Positions 19,613 to 48,207 of a DNA stretch of 50,494 bases are shown here, one piece after another; the stretch's first letter is position 1, and each line of letters starts with the position of its first letter. The notes below the pieces were generated by a model that ran no database searches, was not told where the DNA came from, and saw only the letters and a program-made list of their open reading frames with translations. Source of the DNA: a virus; the IMG/VR virus record IMGVR_UViG_3300031718_000015, positions 1 through 50,494 of that record; one strand, 5' to 3'. The position numbers and the translations under genes are program-made.

Positions 19613-20173
19613 CTAGGCCACTGCCTGGCTCAGACGCACGACTACCCGGGCGTAAGAACCATAAGCGTTGTCAGTTGGGCGGTTGACGATGTCGATGGCC
19701 CGGAATTGAACACCAGGTCCACCGGCAACACCCAACGATTGCTTGCTCTGACGGAAGAGAGTGTTAGATAGAGCATCAATCAGATTGAAAAGACCGTTTT
19801 TGTTGCCAGTTGCGAACGTGTCGGCCATGACCTCGAAATAAACGCTAGTGTCCTCGATGCCGATGATGGCACCGCTGTAGGCGGTGAGCATTTGGTCAAC
19901 GCTCACAGGACCCTGACCGTTCATTATCGTGGGGACAGCCTCAAGTTCGAGGGCAAGCACAATGCCGTAGACCACATCATTCGGGCCGGCATGAAGCGCG
20001 TTACCATTGGCGTCCAATGTGTACGCATCGCCGACACTTATGATGGTCTCCGTCGCACTTGCCGTGGCAACACGATTAGCGAGTACCGGCCGCCGTTGGG
20101 TCTTGGCGCTTTTTATAGCGTCACCCTGAATCGGGCGGAACCCGTTTGGAGAATTGGTATTAGCGTAAGACAT
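19613..20173 (-). CDS. Head decoration/stabilisation protein
   Basis: This 186-residue protein has the beta-rich small-domain pattern of head-decoration or DUF2190-type proteins (VATASATETIISVGDAYTLDANG, PNDVVYGIVLALELEAVP). It is encoded immediately before the major capsid gene in the transcript. It probably binds the outside of capsomers after expansion. The assignment comes from position, size and general pattern. Confidence 0.55.
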   Translation of the reverse strand: MSYANTNSPNGFRPIQGDAIKSAKTQRRPVLANRVATASATETIISVGDAYTLDANGNALHAGPNDVVYGIVLALELEAVPTIMNGQGPVSVDQMLTAYSGAIIGIEDTSVYFEVMADTFATGNKNGLFNLIDALSNTLFRQSKQSLGVAGGPGVQFRAIDIVNRPTDNAYGSYARVVVRLSQAVA

Positions 20174-20178
20174 AAGAT

Positions 20179-20781
20179 TTACTCGTTTTCTGGATACTCC
20201 TTGTAGCCAGGTTGTTTGGTCACGATAGGCTGACCTTTAACCTGCTCAGTCTTGCGTTGAGTAAATTCGACATCAGTCTCATCGACGGCCTTTCCCAGTT
20301 TCCGTCGAGTCTTGATGCCAGCGGTTGCCTCATCAGCACGCATTTTTTCTGCGCGCCGATAACGGGCTTCGATCCTCTTGGGGATCATGACTAAGTGCAT
20401 GTTCCCCACTTGGTGGTGACTGGTTGGCGCGGTGCCAATCGCAGGGGTCGCTAGAGAGCGGGCAGGAAGGCCCACGTCAGCTGGCTCCACCAAGGCGAAG
20501 TCTCTACCCAGATAATCACCTAATTGCTCGTCACGGATGTATTGATAGAAGAAATCGGGTTCGGGGTTAGGGAGCTTGAGTATGTTGCGTAAGCCACCCT
20601 CGTTGATGTCGACGTTGTCGTCGTCAGCGGGGACAGACCACACCCTGCCGGCCCGATTTTTGATCTGGACAATCTTAACCCCGCCGACCTCAAGCACTTC
20701 GGGGTTATGAATGGTATGACCATCAGTTTTGATGCCGTCGATGTCCATGAGCTTTTCTACTTCTTCACCAAGAGTACTCAT
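20179..20781 (-). CDS. Hypothetical head-module protein
   Basis: This 200-residue charged protein has an N-terminal region containing VGGVKIVQIKNRAGRVWSVPADD and a basic helical C-terminus (RIEARYRRAEKMRADEATAG). The C-terminal tail is very polar. It lies between scaffold and decoration genes with a four-base overlap with the scaffold gene. It has no recognised family. Confidence 0.5.
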   Translation of the reverse strand: MSTLGEEVEKLMDIDGIKTDGHTIHNPEVLEVGGVKIVQIKNRAGRVWSVPADDDNVDINEGGLRNILKLPNPEPDFFYQYIRDEQLGDYLGRDFALVEPADVGLPARSLATPAIGTAPTSHHQVGNMHLVMIPKRIEARYRRAEKMRADEATAGIKTRRKLGKAVDETDVEFTQRKTEQVKGQPIVTKQPGYKEYPENE

Positions 20782-34383: not shown

Positions 34384-34923
34384 ATGGCAGACGGCAAAGC
34401 GTTGGAGTTGAAAGAGGGTGCGAGGATTGATGTGAGCGTTACGGTCTATGAGGATATCAAGACCAAGGACGCGAGCGGGCGGGTGACCGAGGGCAAGACC
34501 TTGCATGACGCGAATGGCCGGAAGGTTCAGACACGCGCCGAAGATGGCCAGCGGTTCGTGAGAAGGGTGCTCATGTACCCATTTCCAGCAGGGTTGATTG
34601 ATGATCCGCTGACGGGCAAGAAAGCGGCTGAGAATATGACCGCGCAGCAGATCGGCCATGCGCTGAATGAGTGGCTCAAGGAAGTCGAGGCGCTCAAGGC
34701 GAATGGTGGGCGGGTGAGCGTCAGCGATGGTAAGGATTCGGTTACGATGGAAGTGCCGATTGATGTCATTCCCACGCCGGCTGAAACCTTGGTCAAGGGT
34801 TTCAAGCTTGAGATTCAGGGACCGGTCAATCAGCAGCTAGTGAAGGACCACGTCACTGTCATCGGCGGCCAGGGCAAGGCAAAGAGCACACGAGGCCCGC
34901 TCAATCTCTCGTCACTCGGATAG
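34384..34923 (+). CDS. 179-aa early protein with C-terminal LNLSSLG tag
   Basis: This 179-residue protein is mixed alpha/beta and highly charged (EGARIDVSVTVYEDIKTKD, AAENMTAQQIGHALNEWLKEVEALK, TLVKGFKLEIQGPV). It ends in STRGPLNLSSLG, one of six copies of a shared C-terminal peptide. The gene is followed by a rho-independent terminator, so here the tag codons have no ribosome-binding role for a next gene. It is the largest protein in the first early segment and could be an abundant host-takeover or DNA-binding protein; there is no homology I can name. Confidence 0.6.
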   Translation: MADGKALELKEGARIDVSVTVYEDIKTKDASGRVTEGKTLHDANGRKVQTRAEDGQRFVRRVLMYPFPAGLIDDPLTGKKAAENMTAQQIGHALNEWLKEVEALKANGGRVSVSDGKDSVTMEVPIDVIPTPAETLVKGFKLEIQGPVNQQLVKDHVTVIGGQGKAKSTRGPLNLSSLG

Positions 34924-34937
34924 TCAACTCCAACAAG

Positions 34938-34967
34938 AACCCCGATCAGCAATGGTCGGGGTTTTTT
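34938..34967 (+). terminator. Rho-independent terminator
   Basis: The 8-bp stem AACCCCGA/TCGGGGTT around a 10-base loop is followed by six T. It ends the first early transcript. Confidence 0.9.
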
Positions 34968-35321
34968 CTTGCCTGCGGCATAGCTCGGTGATCTAAGGCA
35001 GCAACTTTTTCAATGAGTGTCAATATGACGCCCTGAGAGCTGCTTTGAGAGACTCTTAGATGGCATTCTCAAAGGCGTTATTGGAAACTATGGGCGCAAG
35101 CGAGAGTGGAGTAGTGTTTATATATATGTCTATATATATATTAACATATATACTCTAACACATTTGCTCTCACTCCTGCCCGCTGTTTCTATGTCAGTCT
35201 CTCTCAACCGCTCCTTTAGGGATAGTTTCCAATGGCCCCGCTGAGAGGCGATGACTAAGGGTCGCTGAAAGCGCCTTAGATGGCTATTGCTGCTAATAGC
35301 AAATTTTGCTCATCCAAGCAG
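34968..35321. other. AT-rich, inverted-repeat region; candidate replication origin
   Basis: No gene is seen. A 12-bp perfect inverted repeat, ATTGGAAACTAT (35080-35091) and ATAGTTTCCAAT (35222-35233), encloses an AT-rich core of TATA runs (about 35116-35156). That core is itself an imperfect palindrome (GTGTT...TATATGT against ACATATATA...AACAC). CTTAGATGGC occurs as a direct repeat at 35055 and 35275. A terminator lies on one side and a promoter on the other. This is the most origin-like segment of the genome. Confidence 0.5.
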
Positions 35322-35350
35322 TTGACAGCCCCATTGCCCAATGCTACTCT
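35322..35350 (+). promoter_or_regulatory. Early promoter 2 (sigma70-like)
   Basis: TTGACA-17 bp-TACTCT with TGC before the -10. GTG 35358, the start of an open frame, lies seven bases after the -10. GCTATT-GCTGCT-AATAGC, a 6-bp inverted repeat with GCTAATAG-type sites, lies about 20 bases upstream. Confidence 0.75.
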
Positions 35351-35357
35351 CTTAACC

Positions 35358-35687
35358 GTGGGCACCCGAATAATTCCAGTCTCGCTGCTAGAAAAGAGAT
35401 ATGTTAAAGAGTGCGCGGCCTGCTACGAAATGTGGTTTGGTGAATATTGTCGCGTGAAGCTAGCAGGAATTATTAGTGAGTATACACCAAAGAAACCGCT
35501 TCCAGCACACCAACAAAGTATGCAAGAACCCACCACTTCTCTAACTCTAAAAATAGCACATGAAACTTGGTCATATGTTAGAACAGAAGCGAAACGACAT
35601 AACCTAACACTCTCTCAATATTGTCGTATTATACTACTCGATCTGGAGTTGCCTAATGCCAATCAAAACATCGCCCAAGAAGATTAA
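35358..35687 (+). CDS. Ribbon-helix-helix-like protein 1
   Basis: This protein has about 109 residues when started at GTG 35358, the predicted +1 of early promoter 2, giving a leaderless start; the frame is open upstream but overlaps the promoter. It has a CAAC/Cys N-terminal part and a C-terminal RHH-like segment (TSLTLKIAHETWSYVRTEAKRHNLTLSQYCRIILLD): a beta strand, then two helices. RHH proteins bind DNA as dimers, often as regulators or accessory proteins. It overlaps the next RHH gene by 32 bases. Confidence 0.55.
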   Translation: MGTRIIPVSLLEKRYVKECAACYEMWFGEYCRVKLAGIISEYTPKKPLPAHQQSMQEPTTSLTLKIAHETWSYVRTEAKRHNLTLSQYCRIILLDLELPNANQNIAQED

Positions 35688-35925
35688 ACTCGTGACGTAT
35701 GTTACAAGTATCGAACATGCCCAAGCAATGGAGACTGCAAGGTTGCAACAATTGTCACTAAGCGAGTGGCTCAGAGCACTCATTATTGGTGCATTTGCTA
35801 AAGTGGTTGTTATTCCAGCCCAAGTCAATCAACCTTATGTAAAACTCCCTGATGCAACGCAACTCCGTAATGATTTAATATTCGGTGATGTCAATGAACC
35901 CCACAATGAATCTGGAGACGAGTGA
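35656..35925 (+). CDS. Ribbon-helix-helix-like protein 2
   Basis: This 89-residue protein has the RHH pattern IKLVTYVTSIEHAQAMETARLQQLSLSEWLRALIIGAF at about residues 10-47, and an acidic tail. It overlaps RHH protein 1 in another frame. Two adjacent RHH proteins may form a hetero-regulator acting on the GCTAAT-type sites nearby, but this is inference. Confidence 0.6.
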   Translation: MPIKTSPKKIKLVTYVTSIEHAQAMETARLQQLSLSEWLRALIIGAFAKVVVIPAQVNQPYVKLPDATQLRNDLIFGDVNEPHNESGDE

Positions 35926-35926
35926 C

Positions 35927-36307
35927 ATGTGGCCAGGGCATGAAGCGACGATGTTCATTGACGATATTATGTTACCATGTCAACTAAATGCCCGTTTAGA
36001 TAGAGACCCTCAGAGACAACTATTGGTTGCGGTGTTTATAGACGCACTCTCATGTGTTGTAGACCTACGAACCAACAGTAAGCATCGCCTGGCCGCGCTC
36101 GATTGGTTTGATGATGATACACCCCATGACGACTACTCACTAACCTTTCTCTATATCTGTGAGGTGCTAGGTTATAACCCAGCCCAGTGGCGCCACTTCG
36201 TGCACCAACCACCAATCGCGGGCCGGCAGTTTAGGCGAGCTTCGGTTTCGAGAATCAAACGCGAGCGAACACGTAATCACTCGCTCAATCTCAAACAGCT
36301 CGGCTAA
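35927..36307 (+). CDS. 126-aa conserved-type phage protein with C-terminal LNLKQLG tag
   Basis: This 126-residue protein has the pattern VFIDALSCVVDLRTN..HRLAALDWFDDDTPHDDYSLTFLYICEVLGY followed by a basic C-terminus. Many phages encode small proteins of this type beside early genes; none has a known function. It ends in RTRNHSLNLKQLG, a copy of the shared tag. The ATG at 35927 follows TGGAG and lies two bases after the previous stop. Its own TAA begins the flank of dyad copy 7, so the tag codons are not a ribosome-binding site. Confidence 0.6.
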   Translation: MWPGHEATMFIDDIMLPCQLNARLDRDPQRQLLVAVFIDALSCVVDLRTNSKHRLAALDWFDDDTPHDDYSLTFLYICEVLGYNPAQWRHFVHQPPIAGRQFRRASVSRIKRERTRNHSLNLKQLG

Positions 36308-36310
36308 TAT

Positions 36311-36329
36311 CTATTGCAATATGGAATAG
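36311..36329 (+). repeat. Intercistronic dyad copy 7
   Basis: The core CTATTGCA-ATA-TGGAATAG is flanked by GGCTAATAT (with the TAA stop of the upstream gene) and CTAATG (the downstream start). Orientation A. Confidence 0.95.
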
Positions 36330-36332
36330 CTA

Positions 36333-36548
36333 ATGCCTGATAAAACAATCGAAATCGAAGACTGCAACTGTCTTGGCGAAAGTGAGAAAGCCTGTCTAAT
36401 CGAGCTTGGCGACGATTGTCGTAAGGCTGGCGAGGCAGTGTGGATACCTAAGTCACAGATACATGACGATAGTGAAGTGTGGAAGAAAGGGCAGGTAGGA
36501 AAGCTCGTGATCACCGAATGGATCGCAGAGCAGAAGGGTTTGATTTAA
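36333..36548 (+). CDS. 71-aa small acidic protein
   Basis: This 71-residue protein has the pattern DCNCLGESEKACLIEL, AVWIPKSQIHDDSEVWKKGQVGKLVITEWIAEQ. It resembles small beta-rich phage proteins with AVWLPKSQ and no function. The ATG is the end of dyad copy 7. It may be a single-domain beta protein. Confidence 0.6.
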   Translation: MPDKTIEIEDCNCLGESEKACLIELGDDCRKAGEAVWIPKSQIHDDSEVWKKGQVGKLVITEWIAEQKGLI

Positions 36549-36580
36549 TGACACCAGCATTAGCGCCGCTAATGGCGATC

Positions 36581-36598
36581 ATTAGGCGAATTCATGCT
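36581..36598 (+). repeat. 18-bp promoter-upstream box, copy 3
   Basis: ATTAGGCGAATTCATGCT ends seven bases before the -35 of early promoter 3. It is the most diverged copy in its first half. Confidence 0.6.
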
Positions 36599-36605
36599 AT
36601 GATGC

Positions 36606-36634
36606 TTGATTGAGCAGCTCGCCTGTGCTATCCT
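36606..36634 (+). promoter_or_regulatory. Early promoter 3 (sigma70-like, extended -10)
   Basis: TTGATT-17 bp-TATCCT with TGTGC before the -10. An ATG lies seven bases after the -10 (36642), at the predicted +1. CCGCTAATGGC upstream is shared with the late promoter region. Confidence 0.75.
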
Positions 36635-36641
36635 ATTCATC

Positions 36642-36818
36642 ATGGAACGTGAGAATTACACCGAGCGAGAATGGAAAATGCTATTGCGAGGGGCTGTCAT
36701 TCTGGATGAAGCTTATGATACTCGCGCTAAATTCAAGCAGCTAATTTTAGGTAACGCATGGATAGAGTTAGGAAATAAACGGTGGACAGATAGAGAACCT
36801 TACGCAACTGGCCGATAG
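36642..36818 (+). CDS. 58-aa protein with leaderless start
   Basis: This 58-residue protein begins with ATG exactly at the predicted +1; no Shine-Dalgarno is possible on such an mRNA. The sequence is charged and helical (MERENYTEREWKMLLRGAVIL, AKFKQLILGNAWIELGNK). The function is unknown. The longer TTG frame upstream would begin in the -35 hexamer and is therefore not the start. Confidence 0.6.
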   Translation: MERENYTEREWKMLLRGAVILDEAYDTRAKFKQLILGNAWIELGNKRWTDREPYATGR

Positions 36819-36840
36819 GCCGCCGAAGGAGACCTGGGAA

Positions 36841-37044
36841 ATGTCAACGATGAAAACGGCTACGGGTTGTATCGAGCTGGGTGCGAATCATCCACTCGAA
36901 AGGGCGTTCGAGATTCCGAATGGTGAGCAGGATGGTGGGCCACGTAAATATATGGCTCGTGACCAAGTACGCATAGTACTCACTGGTCATTACGGCCGGC
37001 CCGCGCTATTCAACGTCATCGCATGGTGCGAGGCACAACGATGA
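36841..37044 (+). CDS. 67-aa hypothetical protein
   Basis: This 67-residue protein (TATGCIELGANHPLERAFEIP, YMARDQVRIVLTGHYGRPALF) looks like a small alpha/beta domain. It is preceded by AAGGAGACCTGGGAA, a leader nearly identical to the last codons of the tagged protein at 39427-39912. It overlaps the next gene by ATGA. Confidence 0.55.
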   Translation: MSTMKTATGCIELGANHPLERAFEIPNGEQDGGPRKYMARDQVRIVLTGHYGRPALFNVIAWCEAQR

Positions 37045-37391
37045 TACAGTGCTCTGCCTGTCAGAAGCCAGTTCTTGAGGTCTTTGAAGACCAATGCGAG
37101 CCATGCTACAAGAAGCTCAAGATCACTCCACTTGTCGATCTACGCAATCAAACTCTCAAAGAACTCTCTCGGATAGATGGGCTTTTAACGGCCAAGCTCG
37201 AAAAGCTCGCACGCTCAAGTCGTCACAATCTCAACATGAGCTTTACCTGTGAGTGTGGTGAGAAGCACAAGAGCGGGCTAGACCTAATCGCCCATCTCCC
37301 CGACTGCGCCGGCCCGAAACCCCAAACCCACCGGAATGGCTTTCACTCAAAGCTGATGAGACAGCCAATTTCGTTGAAGGACTTGGGCTAA
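37041..37391 (+). CDS. 116-aa zinc-finger protein with C-terminal ISLKDLG tag
   Basis: This 116-residue protein has two Cys pairs at the N-terminus (QCSACQKPV, DQCEPCYKK) and a second potential zinc site (FTCECGEKHKSGLDLIAHLPDC). It ends LMRQPISLKDLG, a copy of the shared tag. The ATG overlaps the previous stop (ATGA). Zinc fingers suggest nucleic-acid or protein binding. The tag codons include AAGGA, which can serve as the ribosome-binding site for the next gene. Confidence 0.6.
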   Translation: MIQCSACQKPVLEVFEDQCEPCYKKLKITPLVDLRNQTLKELSRIDGLLTAKLEKLARSSRHNLNMSFTCECGEKHKSGLDLIAHLPDCAGPKPQTHRNGFHSKLMRQPISLKDLG

Positions 37392-37392
37392 C

Positions 37393-37605
37393 ATGGGCCG
37401 CATACAAGACCGCCTTCACTCACAACTAATCGCTCACGACCCCAACAAGAACTGGGACCCCCAATGCGTAGGCTGTTCGATTGCCGCTCGCAAACTCGTC
37501 ATGATGTTCAATTGGCAATCGGGCCGAGGCTCCATCATACCGTGGGGTGATAGACCGGTCTGGGGTTACAATCAACAAAACATCAAACACAACGAGAGAG
37601 AATAA
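37393..37605 (+). CDS. 70-aa hypothetical protein
   Basis: This 70-residue protein has CVGC near the centre and a Trp/Gly-rich C-terminus (WQSGRGSIIPWGDRPVWGY). It starts one base after the preceding stop. No family is recognised. Confidence 0.5.
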   Translation: MGRIQDRLHSQLIAHDPNKNWDPQCVGCSIAARKLVMMFNWQSGRGSIIPWGDRPVWGYNQQNIKHNERE

Positions 37606-37889
37606 TGCAACTACAAGACGTTAGATGTTGCGATTTCTGTAACGACCCAAATGCTCCTTATGTTTGGGCATTTCGGGGGCAGACCATACCAGTTGGTACA
37701 CCAATGAAGATACTTCAAGAGCTTATTATCCACCCTGAATGGTTCGCTTGTGCTTACTGTCATCAAATGCTCCAGAACAGAAACGTCACGAGCCTACTCG
37801 ACCACAACAAAGACATCAAAACCCCAGAACAACGCAAGTATTTAGCTCGCTTTTACCAGTCGTTAATCGACAACCTACAAACCAACTAA
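37605..37889 (+). CDS. 94-aa zinc-finger-like protein
   Basis: This 94-residue protein has Cys pairs CCDFC and CAYCH with a short domain between. This could be a four-Cys zinc site. The C-terminus is helical. It overlaps the previous stop (TAATG). The function is unknown. Confidence 0.55.
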   Translation: MQLQDVRCCDFCNDPNAPYVWAFRGQTIPVGTPMKILQELIIHPEWFACAYCHQMLQNRNVTSLLDHNKDIKTPEQRKYLARFYQSLIDNLQTN

Positions 37890-37902
37890 AAGGAGAACGC
37901 CA

Positions 37903-38478
37903 ATGGCAAATGAACTAACCTACAAACAGCGCTACGACCTCACTCATAATATCAAAAAGGGTAAGACCACGCCACACAATGCTGACCTAATACTCGTCGA
38001 CCGCTCCGGCTCGATGGGCCTGACAGCTATCGGTGGCAAGACTCGCATTCAATGTGTACGAGAAGCACTGGCGCCCTTCAAAAATCGCGCGCATGTTCTA
38101 GCCTTCAATGAACGCTGCGACGAGGTTGACTGTGACGCAATTCCAGGCGCTTCAGGTGGCACCAACCTGGCCGGCGCCCTGCAAGTGGCTGAGACACTCG
38201 AACCCATTCATGTGCTCGTGATGTGTGATGGTGAACCAAACTCCAAACCACAAGCTCTCGAATGGGCCGCGAAGATTGCGACACAGTGTCTCATCGACGC
38301 TCTCTACATCGGGCCGGAATCGGACGGTGAGGCTATCGCGTTCATGAAAGAACTCGCAAGCGTCGGCCACGGTCGCTTCTCGATGTTCTCGCTGAATGAG
38401 CAATCGCCCTTGCTCTTGGGCCAGCGAGTTGCGACGCTATTGGCATTGCCCGACCCCTCGATGGTGGTGAAACTCTAA
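37903..38478 (+). CDS. Von Willebrand factor A (VWA) domain protein
   Basis: This 191-residue protein is a nearly single-domain VWA fold with an intact metal-ion-dependent adhesion site: DRSGSM (33-38), T87 in SGGTNL, and D109 in CDGEPN. Such domains bind protein partners through Mg2+. No MoxR-type AAA partner is encoded nearby. AAGGAG precedes the ATG. In phages, isolated VWA proteins are uncommon; a role in host interaction or as a regulated scaffold is possible. Confidence 0.8.
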   Translation: MANELTYKQRYDLTHNIKKGKTTPHNADLILVDRSGSMGLTAIGGKTRIQCVREALAPFKNRAHVLAFNERCDEVDCDAIPGASGGTNLAGALQVAETLEPIHVLVMCDGEPNSKPQALEWAAKIATQCLIDALYIGPESDGEAIAFMKELASVGHGRFSMFSLNEQSPLLLGQRVATLLALPDPSMVVKL

Positions 38479-38663
38479 TGTCAGCACCTTCACTTTGGAA
38501 ATTCGTTCTTAAAGTGCAACTCAAGAACGTCGTGAGCTATCATACGTTTCTCGCATCGAGTCGGGAGGCACTTTACGAAATACGTAACCAGTACCCAACC
38601 TGGGCCACAACTGAAGTGGTACAAGAATTAGAGTACTCAAAGGGCTTTCAGTTACTAGCATGA
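38478..38663 (+). CDS. 61-aa hypothetical protein
   Basis: This 61-residue alpha/beta protein (LWKFVLKVQLKNVVSYHTFL, SSREALYEIRNQYPTWATTEV) overlaps the previous stop (TAATG) and the next gene (ATGA). It looks like a small ferredoxin-like fold, but that is speculative. Confidence 0.5.
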   Translation: MSAPSLWKFVLKVQLKNVVSYHTFLASSREALYEIRNQYPTWATTEVVQELEYSKGFQLLA

Positions 38664-39004
38664 ACGGCAACGGCTTTGTTGGTCATCTAACAGACCCGCC
38701 CTGCAAGATGCGTCTCGCGGAGATGTTCTATGACTCGAATTGTCCCCGCTGCTGTATGATCAAGAAGGTTGTCTTACTCAGACGCAAACGTCAGGAGCTT
38801 GGTTGTAGTGAAGAAGAAGAAACCGCCGCACAAACCATCAGTGACCAGCTTGTTGCGAAGTATGGTCTCACACGAGGCGAAGTATATGACCGCTTGTACA
38901 CGCCCCCACCAACTGTACAAGAGTTCAAAGAGACCGTAGTCTGGGCTGTGAGAAAACAAAAGGCAAAGGGCGGGCCGCGACGCACGCTCTCGGAGTTAGG
39001 TTAA
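38660..39004 (+). CDS. 114-aa protein with C-terminal RTLSELG tag
   Basis: This 114-residue protein has a Cys cluster (CPRCC), a helical middle (SEEEETAAQTISDQLVAKYGL) and a basic tail ending KGGPRRTLSELG, a copy of the shared tag. The tag codons contain CGGAG, positioned as a ribosome-binding site for the next gene, which overlaps by TAATG. Confidence 0.55.
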   Translation: MNGNGFVGHLTDPPCKMRLAEMFYDSNCPRCCMIKKVVLLRRKRQELGCSEEEETAAQTISDQLVAKYGLTRGEVYDRLYTPPPTVQEFKETVVWAVRKQKAKGGPRRTLSELG

Positions 39005-39279
39005 TGTGGCAACAAGCACGTGTTATAAAAGGTCAGCACAAAGACCGTACACTGTGGGTCAAAACTGAACGACCACATAACTGCTCTTATGACAACACAC
39101 TCCACTTTCACTCCAACCTCAGTGACCCACCCCTTGGTGACGTGTGTGTTCGTTGTGACATGGTCGAATTACTGTCCATTTTTGAGGAAGTTATACCAAT
39201 TATCACTTCCTCCACGTGGGGCATCAAACCAGAAGAATGGGAACTAAAACCCACTATCGGACCAAAAGGAGCACCCTAA
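39004..39279 (+). CDS. 91-aa hypothetical protein
   Basis: This 91-residue protein contains HNCSYDN and CVRCD, a possible metal site, and a helical C-terminal half. It overlaps both neighbours by one base (TAATG). No family is recognised. Confidence 0.5.
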   Translation: MWQQARVIKGQHKDRTLWVKTERPHNCSYDNTLHFHSNLSDPPLGDVCVRCDMVELLSIFEEVIPIITSSTWGIKPEEWELKPTIGPKGAP

Positions 39280-39434
39280 TGGCAGATGTAAAACACGGTG
39301 GTTGTGCAAAATGTGGCTCGAAGACCGAACCCGAACTCACGAGTCGCCCCTTCGGTGATCACAGCGAGGCGCTCTGTAAAGAGTGTGCTGAGAAAATCGA
39401 CACCCAACGCGGCGAGATTCAGCAACGTGGGTGA
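39279..39434 (+). CDS. 51-aa zinc-ribbon-like protein
   Basis: This 51-residue protein has two Cys pairs, CAKCG and CKEC, about 20 residues apart, which fits a zinc ribbon. The ATG at 39279 overlaps the previous stop, and AAAGGAG lies upstream. It is probably a small DNA- or protein-binding factor. Confidence 0.6.
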   Translation: MADVKHGGCAKCGSKTEPELTSRPFGDHSEALCKECAEKIDTQRGEIQQRG

Positions 39435-39912
39435 GCACCACTGGCTCGCAGGCTCGCAACTTATAGATAAGGTCAAATCGAGCTACCTTATGGAAGAAAC
39501 TGTACGAGAAGCATGGCGCAAGCGAGCACTGCTTGGTATTAGTGATAGAGTGGCTAACGTCAGTGGCCCCTGCATCCACGATGGGTGTGGGGGTCAGGGC
39601 TTTGACCTAACCGACGAGTTGTGTTCAACTCACTTCGTAACCGACGTAATCGCCAACATGGAAGACGTCCTCCATGAAGCCAACATCAACTGGGCCGCGG
39701 CCTGCGTTGCCGAGAGTAACCAGAAAGAAATCTGGCGTTGCACCTGTGGTTTTCTTGGCACCTTTCAAGAACGTGAATTGCACTTTAATGCCCTTCATAG
39801 TGATGCAAGTGTCAGTCATGGTCCACCAGTGCGTAATCAGGTGGTTCGAACAACACAAACGCGTGCGCCGAGCACCCACAAACAAGCTATCAAGCTAGGA
39901 GACCTGGGATAA
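39427..39912 (+). CDS. 161-aa zinc-finger protein with C-terminal IKLGDLG tag
   Basis: The frame is open from 39298; GTG 39427, which overlaps the end of the preceding gene, is the likely start, and ATG 39490 is an alternative. The protein has a possible zinc site (PCIHDGCGG) and a clear finger-like motif (WRCTCGFLGTFQERELHFNALH). It ends STHKQAIKLGDLG. The last codons contain GGAGACCTGGGATAATG, so they also form the ribosome-binding site of the next gene. Confidence 0.55.
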   Translation: MGEHHWLAGSQLIDKVKSSYLMEETVREAWRKRALLGISDRVANVSGPCIHDGCGGQGFDLTDELCSTHFVTDVIANMEDVLHEANINWAAACVAESNQKEIWRCTCGFLGTFQERELHFNALHSDASVSHGPPVRNQVVRTTQTRAPSTHKQAIKLGDLG

Positions 39913-40100
39913 TGGAACTAACATTCACCAAAGCAAAGGAGACCAAGGGTACATGGCAGTTTCAAGAGACGGGTTTTCCAGTCGGGGCCAGACCCGTTGT
40001 CGGAACGCTCTATCTCACCAAAGACGCGCTTAAAGCTATGGGTTGGCCACAAGAACTCAAGGTCATCATCAATGGCACCAACGGTGGTCAAGTGTCATGA
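39912..40100 (+). CDS. 62-aa beta-type protein
   Basis: This 62-residue protein (TWQFQETGFPVGARPVVGTLYLTKDALKAMGWPQELKVIIN) resembles a small beta-barrel type common in phage early regions (GTLYLxKxAL). It overlaps both neighbours. The function is unknown. Confidence 0.55.
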   Translation: MELTFTKAKETKGTWQFQETGFPVGARPVVGTLYLTKDALKAMGWPQELKVIINGTNGGQVS

Positions 40101-40372
40101 GCGCCCCCTCGACCACACCCCGAATCGCCTTGAGCGATAATCTCTCTGCCCGAACCTATCGGGCAGTTGCCCGTATAGCCTATGAGATGGGCATTCAGCC
40201 TGACGACTTGAATGATTGTCGCTATTTATGTTGGCTCACAGAGCTACTCAAGCACGTCAAAGACACCCCCAATAACTTCCCTCGTGGGAAATACTCGACC
40301 ATCAAATTACTCAACGACCTAACCAGCGAGGCGGCCCGCGAAGTGGCGCGAATCTACTATGGCAACGTCTAA
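40097..40372 (+). CDS. 91-aa hypothetical protein
   Basis: This 91-residue helical protein has ARTYRAVARIAYEMGIQPDDL and a basic centre. The ATG at 40097 overlaps the upstream stop (ATGA). It could be a small DNA-binding protein; no clear helix-turn-helix is visible. Confidence 0.5.
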   Translation: MSAPSTTPRIALSDNLSARTYRAVARIAYEMGIQPDDLNDCRYLCWLTELLKHVKDTPNNFPRGKYSTIKLLNDLTSEAAREVARIYYGNV

Positions 40373-40556
40373 TTGGCAACACACAATCTGCGACATTTGT
40401 TGGATAAACAAGTTTCCAGACCGAGAAGCCTTTCGTCTACGTGACGCAAGACAAGAAACCTGTTGCTTCTGTGGTACACATACCAATAGTGGCATATATG
40501 TCCGACAAGACCCAGAAACCGTCGGTTGTGGAGGCGAACATGACACAGACGTTTGA
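40359..40556 (+). CDS. 65-aa zinc-finger-like protein
   Basis: This 65-residue protein has two Cys pairs (CDICW and CCFCG), fitting a zinc ribbon, and a polar tail. It overlaps the previous gene by 14 bases and the next by 17. The function is unknown. Confidence 0.5.
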   Translation: MATSNWQHTICDICWINKFPDREAFRLRDARQETCCFCGTHTNSGIYVRQDPETVGCGGEHDTDV

Positions 40557-40821
40557 ACCCTACTACACCTCCGATGGTCCTAGCCAACAACGTCTCTGGC
40601 GCTTTCAAAACGGTCTTGGAGCCAGTGTGGTCAAACGCAACGACGCACTAGAAATGGCGGTGATTAAACCCACCGGAGATAAGTCATTTTGGTTGCACTA
40701 TAAGACACCCTTCGGTCCGCCCAAGGCTGGTCTAACCGAAGACCAAGTCCAACAGTTTATATCCGAGATAGCAACTTATCCGAGTGAACTCGCAAAGGCG
40801 GGCCAGGAAGCGAAGTCATGA
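40540..40821 (+). CDS. 93-aa hypothetical protein
   Basis: This 93-residue protein starts at ATG 40540 after GGAGG. It is a mixed alpha/beta protein (RLWRFQNGLGASVVKRNDALEMAVIKP, KSFWLHYKTPFGPPKAG). No family is recognised. Overlapping starts indicate tight coupling in the early operon. Confidence 0.55.
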   Translation: MTQTFEPYYTSDGPSQQRLWRFQNGLGASVVKRNDALEMAVIKPTGDKSFWLHYKTPFGPPKAGLTEDQVQQFISEIATYPSELAKAGQEAKS

Positions 40822-41144
40822 ACGACTACGAATTACGGAAGTTGGCTGAGACAACACGAGATAATGATGAGAAGTGGCGTCACCATTTCAACTCAAATAT
40901 AACTCCACAGATTGTGCTGCGCCTGCTCGACGAGAATGCGGCGCTACGCAAGGAACTTGATGACCGCTTAAAACTGGATTTAGCTGTCGAGAACGCCGCG
41001 CTCAAGGAACAGATTGCAGCGCTGACAAGCGGCGGTGCGTGTCTCTGCTCATGCGGCGCGCCAATGGCGCATATCTGCGAGAATCAGGCTCATGTGACCG
41101 AAGCTCTCGCCTCAGACGACGCCGCAGCGAAGGAGAAGTCATGA
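40818..41144 (+). CDS. 108-aa coiled-coil protein with Cys motif
   Basis: This 108-residue protein has a helical N-terminus (LRKLAETTRDNDEKWRHHF), a coiled-coil-like centre (LLDENAALRKELDDRLKLDLAVENAALKEQI) and a Cys-rich segment (GGACLCSCGAPMAHICEN). It is Ea22-like in general style only. Its stop overlaps the XRE gene start. Confidence 0.5.
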   Translation: MNDYELRKLAETTRDNDEKWRHHFNSNITPQIVLRLLDENAALRKELDDRLKLDLAVENAALKEQIAALTSGGACLCSCGAPMAHICENQAHVTEALASDDAAAKEKS

Positions 41145-41386
41145 CTGATCAGCAACAAGCAACAGCGCGGCACGATGCGGCAGTTGGGCTACTACAAACG
41201 TATCATGACCTCAATCGTCGTTTCGGCTTCTGTCTAAAAGAACTGCGTCAGCGGGCGCAACTCTCGTTGAGGCAACTTGGCAAGCTCGTAGAGACAGACC
41301 ATGCCTATCTTCACCGCTTAGAACATGGAGTAAAGACAAACCCCTCAGAAGAACTCGTCAAACGGCTGCATAGGTGCTTGCGATGA
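41141..41386 (+). CDS. XRE-family helix-turn-helix protein
   Basis: This 81-residue protein is a single HTH_3/XRE domain (FGFCLKELRQRAQLSLRQLGKLVETDHAYLHRLEHGVKTNPS), which binds DNA as a dimer. AAGGAG precedes ATG 41141. It lacks the peptidase/oligomerisation domain of CI-type repressors, so it is more likely a Cro-like early regulator than a lysogeny repressor. Operators could be the GCTAAT sites or the intercistronic dyads. Confidence 0.75.
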   Translation: MTDQQQATARHDAAVGLLQTYHDLNRRFGFCLKELRQRAQLSLRQLGKLVETDHAYLHRLEHGVKTNPSEELVKRLHRCLR

Positions 41387-41715
41387 CCGACCTCGAACAA
41401 TGGCAAGCGGCGTGTGAGCGGGTGGGCTATGAACAACACAGTTGTTGTAGGAACGACCATCCTGACCATATTCATGATTGGAGAGGAAGATGTGCAACTC
41501 GTAACTATCCGCCCCTCGGCGACCCCGCAGCGGTGGTGAAGATGTTGGAGTGGCTAGTTAAAGCGAACGACCCGACCTATCTACGTGCAAGGGAAAAAGC
41601 TAATGCCGTTCGTGATTTATGGATGGAGATTTGGAATGCCACCCGATATCACGGCGAAACGCTACCCCTCGCCCTCGCCGCCGCCGTGAACGCACTTCCA
41701 ACGGAGAAAGCATAA
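41383..41715 (+). CDS. 110-aa Cys/His-containing protein
   Basis: This 110-residue protein has an N-terminal Cys/His cluster (YEQHSCCRNDHPDHIHDWRGRCATRN) that could bind metal, and a helical C-terminus. ATG 41383 overlaps the XRE stop. The function is unknown. Confidence 0.5.
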   Translation: MTDLEQWQAACERVGYEQHSCCRNDHPDHIHDWRGRCATRNYPPLGDPAAVVKMLEWLVKANDPTYLRAREKANAVRDLWMEIWNATRYHGETLPLALAAAVNALPTEKA

Positions 41716-41716
41716 A

Positions 41717-42367
41717 ATGGGCGTCGTGATTCAGTTCTGGGGTGATGCTATTCAACCTGGGGATAAACCCGTTTTTATATTTCCACTAATACAGGGTTAT
41801 CTAAAAGGGCAAACACGTGACCCCACTAACACGGCGAACAACTTAGTTAGTTCGTTAAGTGGGATCGTATTGACCGGTTCTGATAGTGCTGGCTCAGTCA
41901 ACCTTGACCAGGTTGGTAATGCCGCCAACACCGAAGCCGGCCTGATAGTCGGGCCGCCACATGAAGACCCTTCGACAGGACAGGTAGCCAACCTTACGGT
42001 TCAAACATCTAAGAATGGCAAGGCACTACAAAACGGTGTGGGCGTCCTCGCCGAGATCGGCGCAAGTGGTATCTATTCTTACACTCTCGATTCCACCGAA
42101 ACTCAAGAACCAGGCTCCCTTCTCGTTGCGGTCGAACCCATTAACCCCAAGGCCATCACCGACGTCTATATCTACCCCGCGTTTCTCAATTGTCGTATCA
42201 TGAAACCTGGTATACCTATCACTAAAGTTACGCGTGAGTCTATTCTCGAAGCCCTAACCGGCCCGAATAGCCCCTTTAGTAATCTCGAAAACTACATCAA
42301 CCAAGCCATTCGTGATCTACTCGGTAACCAAATGACCACCAAACCAACCTTTCGTAGGGATAGTTAA
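41717..42367 (+). CDS. 216-aa hypothetical beta-rich protein
   Basis: This 216-residue protein has an N-terminal half of alternating strands with few Cys (VVIQFWGDAIQPGDKPVFIFPLIQ, GIVLTGSDSAG) and a helical C-terminus (NLENYINQAIRDLLGN). The N-terminal half looks like an immunoglobulin-like or BppU-type fibre domain, odd in an early operon. It is directly coupled to the transglycosylase-like gene, so the two may act at the cell envelope. Confidence 0.5.
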   Translation: MGVVIQFWGDAIQPGDKPVFIFPLIQGYLKGQTRDPTNTANNLVSSLSGIVLTGSDSAGSVNLDQVGNAANTEAGLIVGPPHEDPSTGQVANLTVQTSKNGKALQNGVGVLAEIGASGIYSYTLDSTETQEPGSLLVAVEPINPKAITDVYIYPAFLNCRIMKPGIPITKVTRESILEALTGPNSPFSNLENYINQAIRDLLGNQMTTKPTFRRDS

Positions 42368-42715
42368 ATGGACCCCGACACCTTTGCAGAGATTCTCGGT
42401 CTCGTCGAATCCGATGGTAACCCCAACGCCAAACTAGGTGACGGTGGTCGCGCATTTGGTCGCTGGCAAGTCCACCCCGACTGGGTCTTTGAATGGGCCC
42501 TGCGTCTAAAGGTCACGCCCAAACTCAATGAGCTGTGGGACGACTTCATGCGTCGTCTAATCAAAGCCTTCTACAACTTTCCATTTCACCTGAAGCTTCA
42601 ACCCATAGAGGTCGCGATGACATTCCATATTGGCCACATCACACATGTCGGGCAACCCAATTGGGACGATGATTATGCAACGAGGTTCAAGTTCTACGCC
42701 GCGCAGCAGCATTAG
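42368..42715 (+). CDS. Lytic-transglycosylase-like small protein
   Basis: This 115-residue protein has a lysozyme-like pattern, FAEILGLVESDGNPNAKLGDGGRAFGRWQVHPDWV: an N-terminal acidic residue (E14 in LVESDGN) followed by the GxAFGxxQ signature of SLT-type transglycosylases. It is short for a full enzyme and has no signal peptide. It begins one base after the previous stop. It could be the endolysin although it lies in the early unit, or an early cell-wall enzyme. Its stop TAG is inside the 18-bp promoter box. Confidence 0.6.
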   Translation: MDPDTFAEILGLVESDGNPNAKLGDGGRAFGRWQVHPDWVFEWALRLKVTPKLNELWDDFMRRLIKAFYNFPFHLKLQPIEVAMTFHIGHITHVGQPNWDDDYATRFKFYAAQQH

Positions 42716-42728
42716 ATCATTTCATGCT
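42711..42728 (+). repeat. 18-bp promoter-upstream box, copy 4
   Basis: ATTAGATCATTTCATGCT contains the stop codon TAG of the transglycosylase-like gene and ends seven bases before the -35 of early promoter 4. Confidence 0.7.
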
Positions 42729-42735
42729 GCTATGC

Positions 42736-42764
42736 TTGATTGATCATAGGCATTCTGCTATAAT
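42736..42764 (+). promoter_or_regulatory. Early promoter 4 (consensus -10, extended)
   Basis: TTGATT-17 bp-TATAAT with TGC before the -10. The predicted +1 is near 42771; GGAGG and then ATG 42791 follow, so this promoter gives a conventional leader. Confidence 0.85.
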
Positions 42765-42790
42765 GCAGTCACAACGGAGGACCAATTTAG

Positions 42791-43006
42791 ATGGCAAGGC
42801 TTTCTAGCACTTCTACAGGAACCGATATCACGGTCGAACCCAAGCTCATCTCCAAACCGGTGAATGAGCTAACGGACGACGAGTTACTCGCGGAGATCGA
42901 ACGCCTACGTGGGGAGCGTGGGACAGCTGTCCAGGCTGCGCGTCGGGGTGGCGGACCGAGTGGACCAAGACCATCACAACCAATCAAATTGGGAGATCTG
43001 GGCTAG
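42791..43006 (+). CDS. 71-aa tagged protein ending IKLGDLG
   Basis: This 71-residue protein has a polar N-terminus, an acidic helix (NELTDDELLAEIERLRGERG) and a basic, Gly/Pro-rich C-terminus (AARRGGGPSGPRPSQ) ending PIKLGDLG. It is almost only a helix plus flexible tag carrier, which suggests it may be the free or competing form of the tag. It has its own promoter (42736-42764) and GGAGG. The tag codons contain GGGAG for the next gene's GTG start. Confidence 0.65.
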   Translation: MARLSSTSTGTDITVEPKLISKPVNELTDDELLAEIERLRGERGTAVQAARRGGGPSGPRPSQPIKLGDLG

Positions 43007-43194: not shown

Positions 43195-43510
43195 GGAACA
43201 ACTCGACAAAATCGTCCAACAAAACATCGACGATGGGGCGGCATTCCCATATCTACTAACCCATTGTCCCCGCTCACTAGCTCTCCTCGACGAACTCCTC
43301 AAAAAGGGCCAGGACACCCACGAGCCAATGGACTGGATTGCACTCGGTCTCAATGGCAATCGTGACCATGCCATCGACCACCTTCGTAAAATGATGGGAC
43401 CACGCCTTATCGGCGATCACGACAATCACTGGCTCAACGCGGTGTGTCGCTTGATGTTCTGCCTAGAATTACTCGAGGCCGCGAAAGATGTTCAAACCCC
43501 TGGGACATAG
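43187..43510 (+). CDS. DUF5664-like (dATP/dGTP diphosphohydrolase N-terminal-like) protein
   Basis: This 107-residue helical protein has the pattern RDHAIDHLRKMMG...GDHDNHWLNAVCRLMFCLELLEA. It resembles the small phage family annotated as dATP/dGTP diphosphohydrolase N-terminal domain (HxxxA/HHL followed by HLxHAACxLLFLLEL). Known members hydrolyse dNTPs or have unproven activity. It is next to GroES, with a 23-base overlap. No PurZ-like gene is present, so a base-substituted genome is not implied. Confidence 0.5.
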   Translation: MTKEQLDKIVQQNIDDGAAFPYLLTHCPRSLALLDELLKKGQDTHEPMDWIALGLNGNRDHAIDHLRKMMGPRLIGDHDNHWLNAVCRLMFCLELLEAAKDVQTPGT

Positions 43511-43778
43511 AATACTCGTGAAACGCTGGCCCGAAGTCGAAGAACGTGAGAGTGGTCTAATCCTGCCAGCGGCGGCCCGTGAGCTACCACAAATCGGCCG
43601 TGTCATCGCGGTGAGCGGCCCCATTGACGTTGAGGTGGGAGATGACGTGATATTCGAGAAGTTTGTCAAAACCGACTATCGAATCTACATCAAAGACAAC
43701 GAGTACTTACTCTTACCTTATGACGCTCTCTACGCTGTGATTGTCGGTGGCGTGAGCGGGATAGCTATTGCAGGATGA
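43488..43778 (+). CDS. groES: GroES-like co-chaperonin
   Basis: This 96-residue protein matches Cpn10: MFKPLGHRILVKR at the N-terminus, a mobile-loop region with GLILP in place of GGIVL, then IGRVIAVSGP and VEVGDDVIFEKF. It probably replaces or supplements host GroES to fold the phage capsid protein with host GroEL, as T4 gp31 does. No GroEL is encoded. The C-terminal tail is longer than usual because it runs into dyad copy 8, which supplies its last residues and the TGA stop. Confidence 0.85.
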   Translation: MFKPLGHRILVKRWPEVEERESGLILPAAARELPQIGRVIAVSGPIDVEVGDDVIFEKFVKTDYRIYIKDNEYLLLPYDALYAVIVGGVSGIAIAG

Positions 43779-43785: not shown

Positions 43786-44805
43786 ATGCCTTTATCTGAC
43801 GTAATTCTCGACAAGGAATGGTACGATAACTCGCTGGTCGACCTAATGTTGGCTTGCAAACGCAAAGCCTTCATTGCCAGAATCTACAACGGTGGTCTTG
43901 AAGCCGGTGTGGGTTATGGTGCTCTCTTCGGCACCTGTATGCACGGCTTTAGAGCCACTTACTATAGCTGGTGGGGCAAAGAGAGCGAAGAACGTCGCCG
44001 GCTTCGTGGCATGCGTAAGTTTCTAGAGCTTCACGAAGAACTCTTCAAGGGTCCGATGTTAGATACCCTCGATAGCAAGCACACCAAAGAAGCCGGCCTG
44101 GGTATGATTGATCACTATTGTGATAGTTATCTCCAAGAGGATACGCTCCTAAAGCCCATAGCGGTAGAGCTATCCGGTGCCATCGAGATCAAGCCCCGCG
44201 ACGGCGACCCTTTCGACTTCGTGCCCTTCTGGTACGCCTTTAAGATTGACGGTATTCACCAACGCCTTTCTTATGGTGATTATTGGGTCGCTGAGATGAA
44301 AAACACTGGTGGTGGTGTCGCACGTGAACTCAAGAAGCTCCGCTTATCACGTCAACCGACTGGTTATGTCTATTGCGCTCGTCAGTTTCCTGGCCCGCCC
44401 GTCTCTGGTTGTATGCCCGACGTCAATGGCGTGATGGTCAAGACCCGTGAATGCCAACGCGATTTCTACCCCAAAACTCAACGAGACACCGACCAGTGGC
44501 GCCTGGAAACCATCAACATCGTCGAAGACTGGCGACGAATAGCTGATCTCATAGAGCACCGTAATGAAAGTGACAAAAGACTCACCTTCGAGCAAATCCT
44601 CTCACTCTACTATCAAAATACCGCCGAGTGCACTTCATACGGTCTGTGTGCTTTCTACGACATCTGTCGAGATGGATTCTCTCCCGCGACTCTTGCGGCG
44701 TTTCGGCGTAATAGTTGGAACCCGCTCGAAGATCAAACGCACCTTGAAAGGAAAGAAATCAAAACAGCCGAGGGGCTAATGGAAATTCACGAGGTGACAC
44801 CCTAA
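43786..44805 (+). CDS. Cas4/RecB-like PD-(D/E)xK nuclease with Fe-S cysteines
   Basis: This 339-residue protein has the Cas4-like layout: YGALFGTCMHGF near the N-terminus, catalytic D155 in FKIDGIHQRL and E170-M-K172 in WVAEMKNTGG. One N-terminal Cys (C24 in LACKRKAF) and three C-terminal Cys (C282, C288, C294 in ECTSYGLCAFYDIC) fit a 4Fe-4S cluster. Such nucleases resect DNA ends in phage recombination. It overlaps the Sak4-like gene by one base, suggesting a shared role in recombination-dependent replication. ATG 43786 is the end of dyad copy 8. Confidence 0.8.
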   Translation: MPLSDVILDKEWYDNSLVDLMLACKRKAFIARIYNGGLEAGVGYGALFGTCMHGFRATYYSWWGKESEERRRLRGMRKFLELHEELFKGPMLDTLDSKHTKEAGLGMIDHYCDSYLQEDTLLKPIAVELSGAIEIKPRDGDPFDFVPFWYAFKIDGIHQRLSYGDYWVAEMKNTGGGVARELKKLRLSRQPTGYVYCARQFPGPPVSGCMPDVNGVMVKTRECQRDFYPKTQRDTDQWRLETINIVEDWRRIADLIEHRNESDKRLTFEQILSLYYQNTAECTSYGLCAFYDICRDGFSPATLAAFRRNSWNPLEDQTHLERKEIKTAEGLMEIHEVTP

Positions 44806-46591: not shown

Positions 46592-46840
46592 GTGAGATGT
46601 CCGAATCCAACATGTCGTAGTGCACGAATCTCGAACCTTAACACATGGCAACCAGATGACGCAGGGATTATAGCTGAACTTCGTGGGCTTAATATCACCC
46701 GTCGCCGCAAGAAATGTGGTGCCTGTAATGAAGTGTTCTTTACCGTCGAATGTGACGAGAAGGACTTTCTTCATCTACGCCGCAAAACGGGCCGGCTTGA
46801 AGTATCTCAACCTTCAGTCCGTCCAGGTATGACTAAATGA
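46592..46840 (+). CDS. NrdR-like zinc-ribbon protein
   Basis: This 82-residue protein has a zinc ribbon of NrdR type: CPNPTC at the start and CGACNEVFFTVE near residue 50, separated by an RRRKK-containing segment. NrdR's ribbon binds DNA and represses ribonucleotide-reductase genes, but the ATP-cone domain is missing here. It might titrate host NrdR boxes. The GTG start follows GAGG. It overlaps the methyltransferase gene. Confidence 0.65.
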   Translation: MRCPNPTCRSARISNLNTWQPDDAGIIAELRGLNITRRRKKCGACNEVFFTVECDEKDFLHLRRKTGRLEVSQPSVRPGMTK

Positions 46841-48207
46841 GTGCCAACTATCATGACGTCCCGCTCAAAAACATCATCATCGGCGAACGCTTCCGAATCG
46901 ACTACGGCGATATGGACGGACTTAAACGTTCTATTGAGAAATTTGGCCTTGCGTTTGAGCCAGTCCTCTTGGACCGTGCAAACAACCTCCTCGCTGGCGG
47001 TCGTCGTTTCAGAGCTTACAGCGAGCTTGGTCGTGGCACAATACCTGCTATCTACCTTGACGAAGTCGACGAGATTCTCAAACGTGAAATCGAACTCGAA
47101 GAAAACATCCAGCGCAAAGAACTCGACTGGCAAGAAGCGGTCAAACTAGCTGATGAAATTCACCGTCTCAAGACGGAAAAATACGCGGGTCAGATGGCGC
47201 CGGCCCGCGACGACCTTACCAGCGGTCCAGTCCTTTCTGATGAAGAACGCGAACGCGCGCATCGTTCTGTCCCCGCTTGGACCCAAAACAACACCGCCGA
47301 CCTACTTGACATCTCACCTGCGAACCTCACACGCAAACTTTACCTTGCTCGTGCAATGGAAGTCATGCCCGAACTCGCTAACGAAGACAGCGAAAGCGCG
47401 GCTCTTAAAAAGATTGACCGACGACTTGAAGACCTGGAACGCGAGTATAGTTATCGTAGACTCAAACTCGAAGGGAAACTAAATGAAGAAGGCCAAGTCT
47501 TACTAGGAGATTGTTGTGAGCTACTCGAAAAGCTCGATGACAAATCCATCGACTGTATTATTATCGATCCGCCGTACGGAGTCCTCGAAGCAGGAGGAAT
47601 TGGACGATACGAACAACACTTCGACGATGACCCTGTTACAGCTATGCGAACTCTATCAATCGCAGCCAAAGAGCTTCAAAGAGTAGCTAAGGATGACGCG
47701 CACATCTACATATTTTTCGGCATCAAAATGTGGGAACAAACGCGTGGTATATTTACTAGCCTTGGTTTTGACCCTGATCCTATTCCCCTCGTGTGGGTTA
47801 AGACCACCGGCTCGGTCGTGGATTGGGACTTCCGCTATGCAAACTACTGGGAACCAATTCTGTTCATTAGTAACCACTCTCGACGCCTCGCATTTAAGCG
47901 ACCAAATGTTTTCCAATACGATTCCGTCGCAAACAACCTGCGAGCTAACGTTGCCGAGAAGCCAGTCGAGCTTATCAGTGAATTGCTACGACTGTCTACA
48001 AATGAAGGAGATTTGGTCCTCGACTGCTTTGCAGGGAGCGGGGTTGTCGGAGTAGCGGCCAAGCAACTTAAACGGCGATTCATTCTCATGGAGAAAGACC
48101 AATCACAATGGAACGAGATACAAGTGCGCTTGGCCGCTGTCAGTGCATTAGCGAGCGAAGAATTGACGAGCCAGTCTGCGAACAATTCGTCCCCCAAGGA
48201 ACAATAA
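46837..48207 (+). CDS. ParB-domain/DNA methyltransferase fusion
   Basis: This 456-residue protein has an N-terminal ParB/Srx-like domain (GGRRFRAYSELG at 54-65, ELEENIQRKELDW at 86-98). A helix-turn-helix (NNTADLLDISPANLTRKLYLA, about 151-171) follows, then an N6-adenine/N4-cytosine methyltransferase with DPPY (244-247) and DCFAGSG (396-402). The motif order fits the beta group. Such fusions are frequent in phages and modify phage DNA to evade restriction; the target is not known. It overlaps the NrdR-like gene by four bases. Confidence 0.9.
   Translation: MSANYHDVPLKNIIIGERFRIDYGDMDGLKRSIEKFGLAFEPVLLDRANNLLAGGRRFRAYSELGRGTIPAIYLDEVDEILKREIELEENIQRKELDWQEAVKLADEIHRLKTEKYAGQMAPARDDLTSGPVLSDEERERAHRSVPAWTQNNTADLLDISPANLTRKLYLARAMEVMPELANEDSESAALKKIDRRLEDLEREYSYRRLKLEGKLNEEGQVLLGDCCELLEKLDDKSIDCIIIDPPYGVLEAGGIGRYEQHFDDDPVTAMRTLSIAAKELQRVAKDDAHIYIFFGIKMWEQTRGIFTSLGFDPDPIPLVWVKTTGSVVDWDFRYANYWEPILFISNHSRRLAFKRPNVFQYDSVANNLRANVAEKPVELISELLRLSTNEGDLVLDCFAGSGVVGVAAKQLKRRFILMEKDQSQWNEIQVRLAAVSALASEELTSQSANNSSPKEQ

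Follow-up and report, generated by a model that had tools for sequence, protein, structure and literature searches.

A genome-specific C-terminal peptide common to several families of small phage proteins, and its putative role as a docking tag

Results

In an uncultured tailed phage, six small proteins end in a common short peptide, which is conserved as a peptide, is specific to the genome, occurs on several protein families and differs between related genomes in concert. The window analysed here (W) is the entire IMG/VR record IMGVR_UViG_3300031718_000015, of 50,494 bases, the minus strand carrying the structural genes (terminase, portal, capsid protein) and the plus strand the replication and small genes, among them Sak4-like, DUF669/SSB-like, ParB-methyltransferase, GroES and DUF3987 primase/helicase genes and the end of a family-A polymerase gene. 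The contig end truncates that polymerase to a C-terminal part (63-746); the closest relative has the complete gene, for 816 residues. Two large proteins of the late strand (3553-6768 and 27251-30154, both minus) contain long Thr-Ala-Thr-Pro repeat stretches and are probably tail fibres. No near match to the window was found among 50,697 phage records. The six open reading frames and their endings lie exactly where the initial annotation had placed them:

34384-34923, plus strand: family S protein, 179 aa, tag LNLSSLG (codons 34900-34920), terminator follows
35927-36307, plus strand: 126-aa protein, tag LNLKQLG (codons 36284-36304)
37041-37391, plus strand: family Zf protein (CxxC/CxxC and a C-terminal finger), tag ISLKDLG (codons 37368-37388)
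38660-39004, plus strand: DUF2786-like protein (weak Pfam match, E 0.037), tag RTLSELG (codons 38981-39001)
39427-39912, plus strand: second Zf-family protein, tag IKLGDLG (codons 39889-39909)
42791-43006, plus strand: family H protein, 71 aa, a short helix, flexible linker and tag IKLGDLG (codons 42983-43003)

The pattern first proposed for these endings, [LI]xLxxLG, describes five of the six, RTLSELG departing from it at the first position and fitting LxxLG only. The protein bodies, originally described as unrelated, fall into five families rather than six, since one zinc-finger family contributes two distant paralogues, the products of 37041-37391 and 39427-39912. Ahead of the tag lies a basic linker with few hydrophobic residues. 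Searches of Pfam and PHROGs with the six proteins returned nothing significant, a PDB search gave no match for the S protein, and the AF2 model of the latter is of low confidence (mean pLDDT 45). A further 71-residue protein of the region, encoded at 36333-36548, matches phrog_8389 (E 3e-12), and its last 14 residues, LVITEWIAEQKGLI, are identical in a distant relative (G7, below).

The ending is far more frequent than in other phages. LxxLG at the stop codon is found in 6 of 71 proteins of the window and in none of 1,122 proteins from 24 background phage records, so that the equal frequency in other phage proteomes named beforehand as a refutation is not what is seen; no further LxxLG ends were found in the window among all open reading frames of at least 30 residues. 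A flush comparison of the seven C-terminal residues, run over every pair of unrelated proteins within each of 20 genomes, singled out exactly the six as the best-connected group in the window (maximum degree 5), while controls with 40 internal windows per genome, over the same number of genomes, gave 4 links at most. The same comparison picked exactly the seven tagged proteins of the closest relative. A looser pair test of C-termini, with shifts allowed and the threshold set low, gave too much noise in the window (10 pairs against a control mean of 8.8) and the flush test was used in its place.

Four of the tags in the window are followed by the next start codon within 0-2 bases, and overlap with the Shine-Dalgarno sequence or start codon of the following gene might thus produce the ending as a side effect, as might recent copying of DNA from gene to gene. 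Some resemblance at the DNA level does exist: the tag-coding DNA at 39898-39913, before the start at 39912 (aggagacctgggataATG), has a nearly identical counterpart in the noncoding leader at 36824-36838 (aaggagacctgggaaATG). Either cause would force agreement between codons, and this is not observed: at positions with the same residue the tags share a codon in 17 of 58 cases in the window (14.8 expected under independent codon choice) and in 24 of 72 in the closest relative (27.7 expected). Codon agreement is therefore at chance level, the peptide is what is conserved, and neither Shine-Dalgarno sequences nor recent copying explains it. Tags are also present where no gene closely follows (34923 in the window, 14738 in the closest relative); of the two remaining tags in the window, the one ending at 34923 is followed by a terminator and by no called gene for about 500 bases, and the other by a start codon 26 bases on. 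The sharing moreover persists in relatives with other sequences. We consider an origin in start-codon overlap or copying highly improbable, and the earlier statement that the peptide itself is conserved holds.

Relatives were located in IMG/VR with terminase, nuclease, capsid and helicase profiles, and their records were read wholly or largely. They comprise IMGVR_UViG_3300005529_000056 (G1), which is closest to the window (terminase 68% identical), 3300010391_000098 (G2), the fragment 3300011436_000003 (G4), 3300044983_000151 (G5), 3300044981_000082 (G7), 3300009091_000003 (G8), 3300025326_000087 (G37) and the cultured Caulobacter phage Kuura; all but Kuura are metagenome contigs, with gene calls made in this analysis. 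No additional close relatives came up when the S protein or the H profile was used as query, and scans of genome collections, meant to find a host or prophage, yielded one doubtful capsid match and no relative bearing the nuclease-like gene.

Five of the six tagged proteins have tagged orthologues in G1, with other residues (KTLETIG, NEIEEIG, NDLDEIG, NKIEEIG and VNIDEIG), the ending type being [IL][DE]EIG. KTLETIG belongs to the S orthologue (44% identical), NDLDEIG to the DUF2786-like homologue, which in G7 ends in REEISI, and NKIEEIG to the orthologue of 39427-39912. Two further proteins of G1 are tagged, the methyltransferase (VIVEEIG) and a 63-residue protein (VEVDELG). The ParB-methyltransferase of the window is untagged, as is the G1 homologue of 35927-36307 (end SLFPEIDRYKIP), which indicates that proteins can gain or lose the tag; from the sequences compared, that of 35927-36307 would have been gained in W or lost in G1. 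The methyltransferase itself (46837-48207) fuses a ParB-like N-terminal domain to an N6/N4 DNA methylase, and is tagged in G1, G4 and G7, not in W or G5. The end NVITLG of the VWA-domain protein of G1 was considered as a tag and dropped, this C-terminus having a conserved LPxP..L signature of its own.

Across the closely related genomes that encode them, the Zf and H proteins carry the tag; the 179-residue protein, the DUF2786-like protein and the ParB-methyltransferase are tagged in part of the genomes. Zf is tagged in G1, G2 and G5, with looser tails in G4, G7 and G8, and H members in G1, G2, G4 and G5 each have the tail type of their own genome. In distant relatives the endings common to families are EFDF(D/E)N(V/I)G, VDLSRFxKTEE, QKAILD(D/E)LF and L(N/S)IDDL(L/F). 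The Zf and H tails read REFDFENVG and KEFDFDNIG in G5 and RVDLSRFHKTEEV and GVDLSRFSKTEEEL in G2, and are less uniform in G4 (RELVDEVAI and DFIDGEDIL) and G7 (..EASI and DDEISI). G37 has QKAILDDLFAD and QKAILDELFSD, with a third tail, AIEDELFSD, on the product of the gene directly upstream of the presumed large terminase, the usual place of a small terminase, and Kuura has ELNIDDLFSE and DLSIDDLLSTL. Within the tagged gene cluster of G7 there is also a RuvB-like AAA protein (L032/L031, positions 19734-20708 of that record, minus strand) whose C-terminus reads NSI.

Over all detected S, Zf and H members of seven genomes, tail similarity averages 24.4 within a genome across families and 11.0 between genomes, the value for orthologues of different genomes being 12.0; no shuffle of labels in 20,000 reached the observed similarity, and internal windows were flat. 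These figures should be read with the tags of distant genomes having been found partly by eye ahead of testing, and with S homology firm for W-G1 and G5-G8 only. Because tails were what first drew attention to the S members of G2, G5 and G8, the test was rerun with Zf and H alone: with five genomes, in which H homology is supported independently of the tail (weakly for G2), the true pairing was the best of 120, and with six genomes it ranked 2 of 720. Against 8,558 tails of open reading frames, the H tail found its best match in its own genome for W, G2, G5, Kuura and G37, the H homology of Kuura and G7 being drawn from position and from a profile that included them. The within-genome sets are strongest in W, G1, G2 and G5, and the tails of G4, G7 and G8 are looser. 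Tails thus match across families inside a genome and not across orthologues, showing that the tags are genome-specific and have changed in concert.

Three products encoded near the tagged genes were considered as partners of the tag:

37903-38478, plus strand: VWA-domain protein among the tagged genes (Pfam VWA_3, E 1e-4)
43488-43778, plus strand: GroES-like co-chaperonin, Cpn10 (PF00166, E 5e-16), candidate partner
43786-44805, plus strand: conserved protein with no Pfam or PHROG match, downstream of the H gene, present in every tagged genome

The VWA protein, put forward in the initial annotation, is an unlikely partner, since its gene was not found in the tagged genomes G4 (a fragment), Kuura and G37. 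All seven core genomes have the GroES-like gene; it was not detected in Kuura or G37, where two or three proteins each provide the evidence for a tag. Only three of the phage genes tested are common to all tagged genomes, Kuura and G37 among them: the polymerase, the primase/helicase and the gene at 43786-44805, whose product we read by resemblance as a putative nuclease. Sak4 was rejected as a receptor, as AF2 did not dock the tag in the sole natural read-through fusion, a weak test. Also rejected was an ATP-grasp ligase that would act on the C-terminal glycine, the tags of G2, G4, G7, G8, Kuura and G37 having no final glycine. The idea came from a 457-residue ATP-grasp protein of the window (2189-3562, minus strand), which resembles phosphoribosylglycinamide synthetase (PF01071, E 7e-6, just below cut-off) and is conserved in G1, G2, G5, G7 and G36.

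Discussion

To judge from these sequences, the ending probably serves as a C-terminal docking tag that brings small phage proteins to one common partner. The tag would be a short linear motif with a flexible, basic linker ahead of it; several proteins would bind the same site on one partner, and as that site drifts all the tags would follow. We infer that a single co-evolving receptor is the cause of the concerted change. Our guess would place this receptor in the phage replication or recombination machinery (family-A polymerase, DUF3987 primase/helicase or nuclease-like protein), as no other gene tested is common to all the tagged genomes; a host protein is no less possible. Of the earlier proposal of docking to a common partner, the docking peptide is strongly supported by codon-independent conservation, tagged orthologues and concerted change, while the partners then named find no support, the host polymerase, chaperonin and protease adaptor being candidates at most.

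Other functions have been weighed against docking. The tagged proteins are small and mostly encoded in the replication and small-gene region, and known degrons are likewise short unstructured C-termini, so a host protease or adaptor might clear these proteins after use. The tags, however, have acidic residues, match no LAA-type end and differ strongly between close lineages, whereas proteases such as ClpX are conserved, which makes a degron unlikely. About as doubtful is a packaging address, by which the proteins would be placed in the capsid at assembly for injection, in the manner of encapsulin cargo peptides: the LxLxxL hydrophobic spacing and flexible linker do recall encapsulin targeting peptides in outline, yet Kuura has tag-like tails and no detectable relative of the window's capsid protein, and most tagged genes sit with the replication genes, opposite to the structural ones. 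Slightly less probable again is mutual binding of the tags, through which proteins that share an ending would co-assemble. Concerted change within a genome could then be explained with no separate receptor, but the tails are very short and often charged, and structural support for self-association is lacking.

Docking to a common partner is accordingly the reading we retain, and it has practical consequences. The tag peptide could be used as bait for the putative common hub, the tag predicts which small phage proteins of unknown role work together, and lineage-specific tags could explain the specificity of phage complexes. Bench tests are possible in Kuura, a cultured phage with a candidate tag pair. 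A wider and more tentative proposal, which we regard as possible rather than probable, is a private address system in this podophage-like clade, in which each lineage puts its own C-terminal code word on conserved small proteins and sometimes recruits it to new ones (the methyltransferase, possibly the small terminase). A co-evolving hub in charge of takeover or replication would read the code word and would separate the proteins of co-infecting relatives.

C-terminal address tags as such are already known, from encapsulin cargo and the SSB tip. We know of no shared C-terminal tag for a set of early phage proteins, and the literature searched held no precedent for a tag common to such proteins and rewritten in concert between phages. 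The bacterial sliding-clamp motif and the PIP box are short motifs on many proteins that address one hub, and the tails of Kuura and G37 (NIDDLF, ILDDLF) are superficially PIP-like. Most phage tags nonetheless have neither the spacing nor the Gln of QLxLF; the tags of W and G1 lack both, in agreement with the initial annotation, and do not fit QL[SD]LF, and sequences so strongly phage-specific seem ill suited to a conserved host clamp. The peroxisomal PTS1 is a C-terminal address common to unrelated proteins, read by one receptor and conserved across eukaryotes; the phage tag is also C-terminal, on unrelated proteins and with a proposed single reader, but is rewritten from phage to phage and has no known organelle. 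Among encapsulin targeting peptides, cores such as LGI and GSL have been described (PMC7925596). Like the phage tag, these are short C-terminal hydrophobic motifs after a flexible linker, borne by different proteins of one organism, served by one reader and variable between systems. The LGI and GSL cores are absent from most phage tags, however, and an encapsulin shell seems to be absent. A capsid protein is present in W, G1, G2, G4, G7 and G8, and no relative of it was detected in Kuura, a phage that has tag-like tails too. The SSB C-terminus, finally, has a short acidic and hydrophobic tip after a disordered linker and belongs to DNA metabolism, as the tagged proteins may. It differs in its acidic stretch followed by Pro-Phe, no phage tag ending in PF, and in the direction of the traffic, one SSB tail being read by many partners, whereas in these phages many proteins carry the tail.
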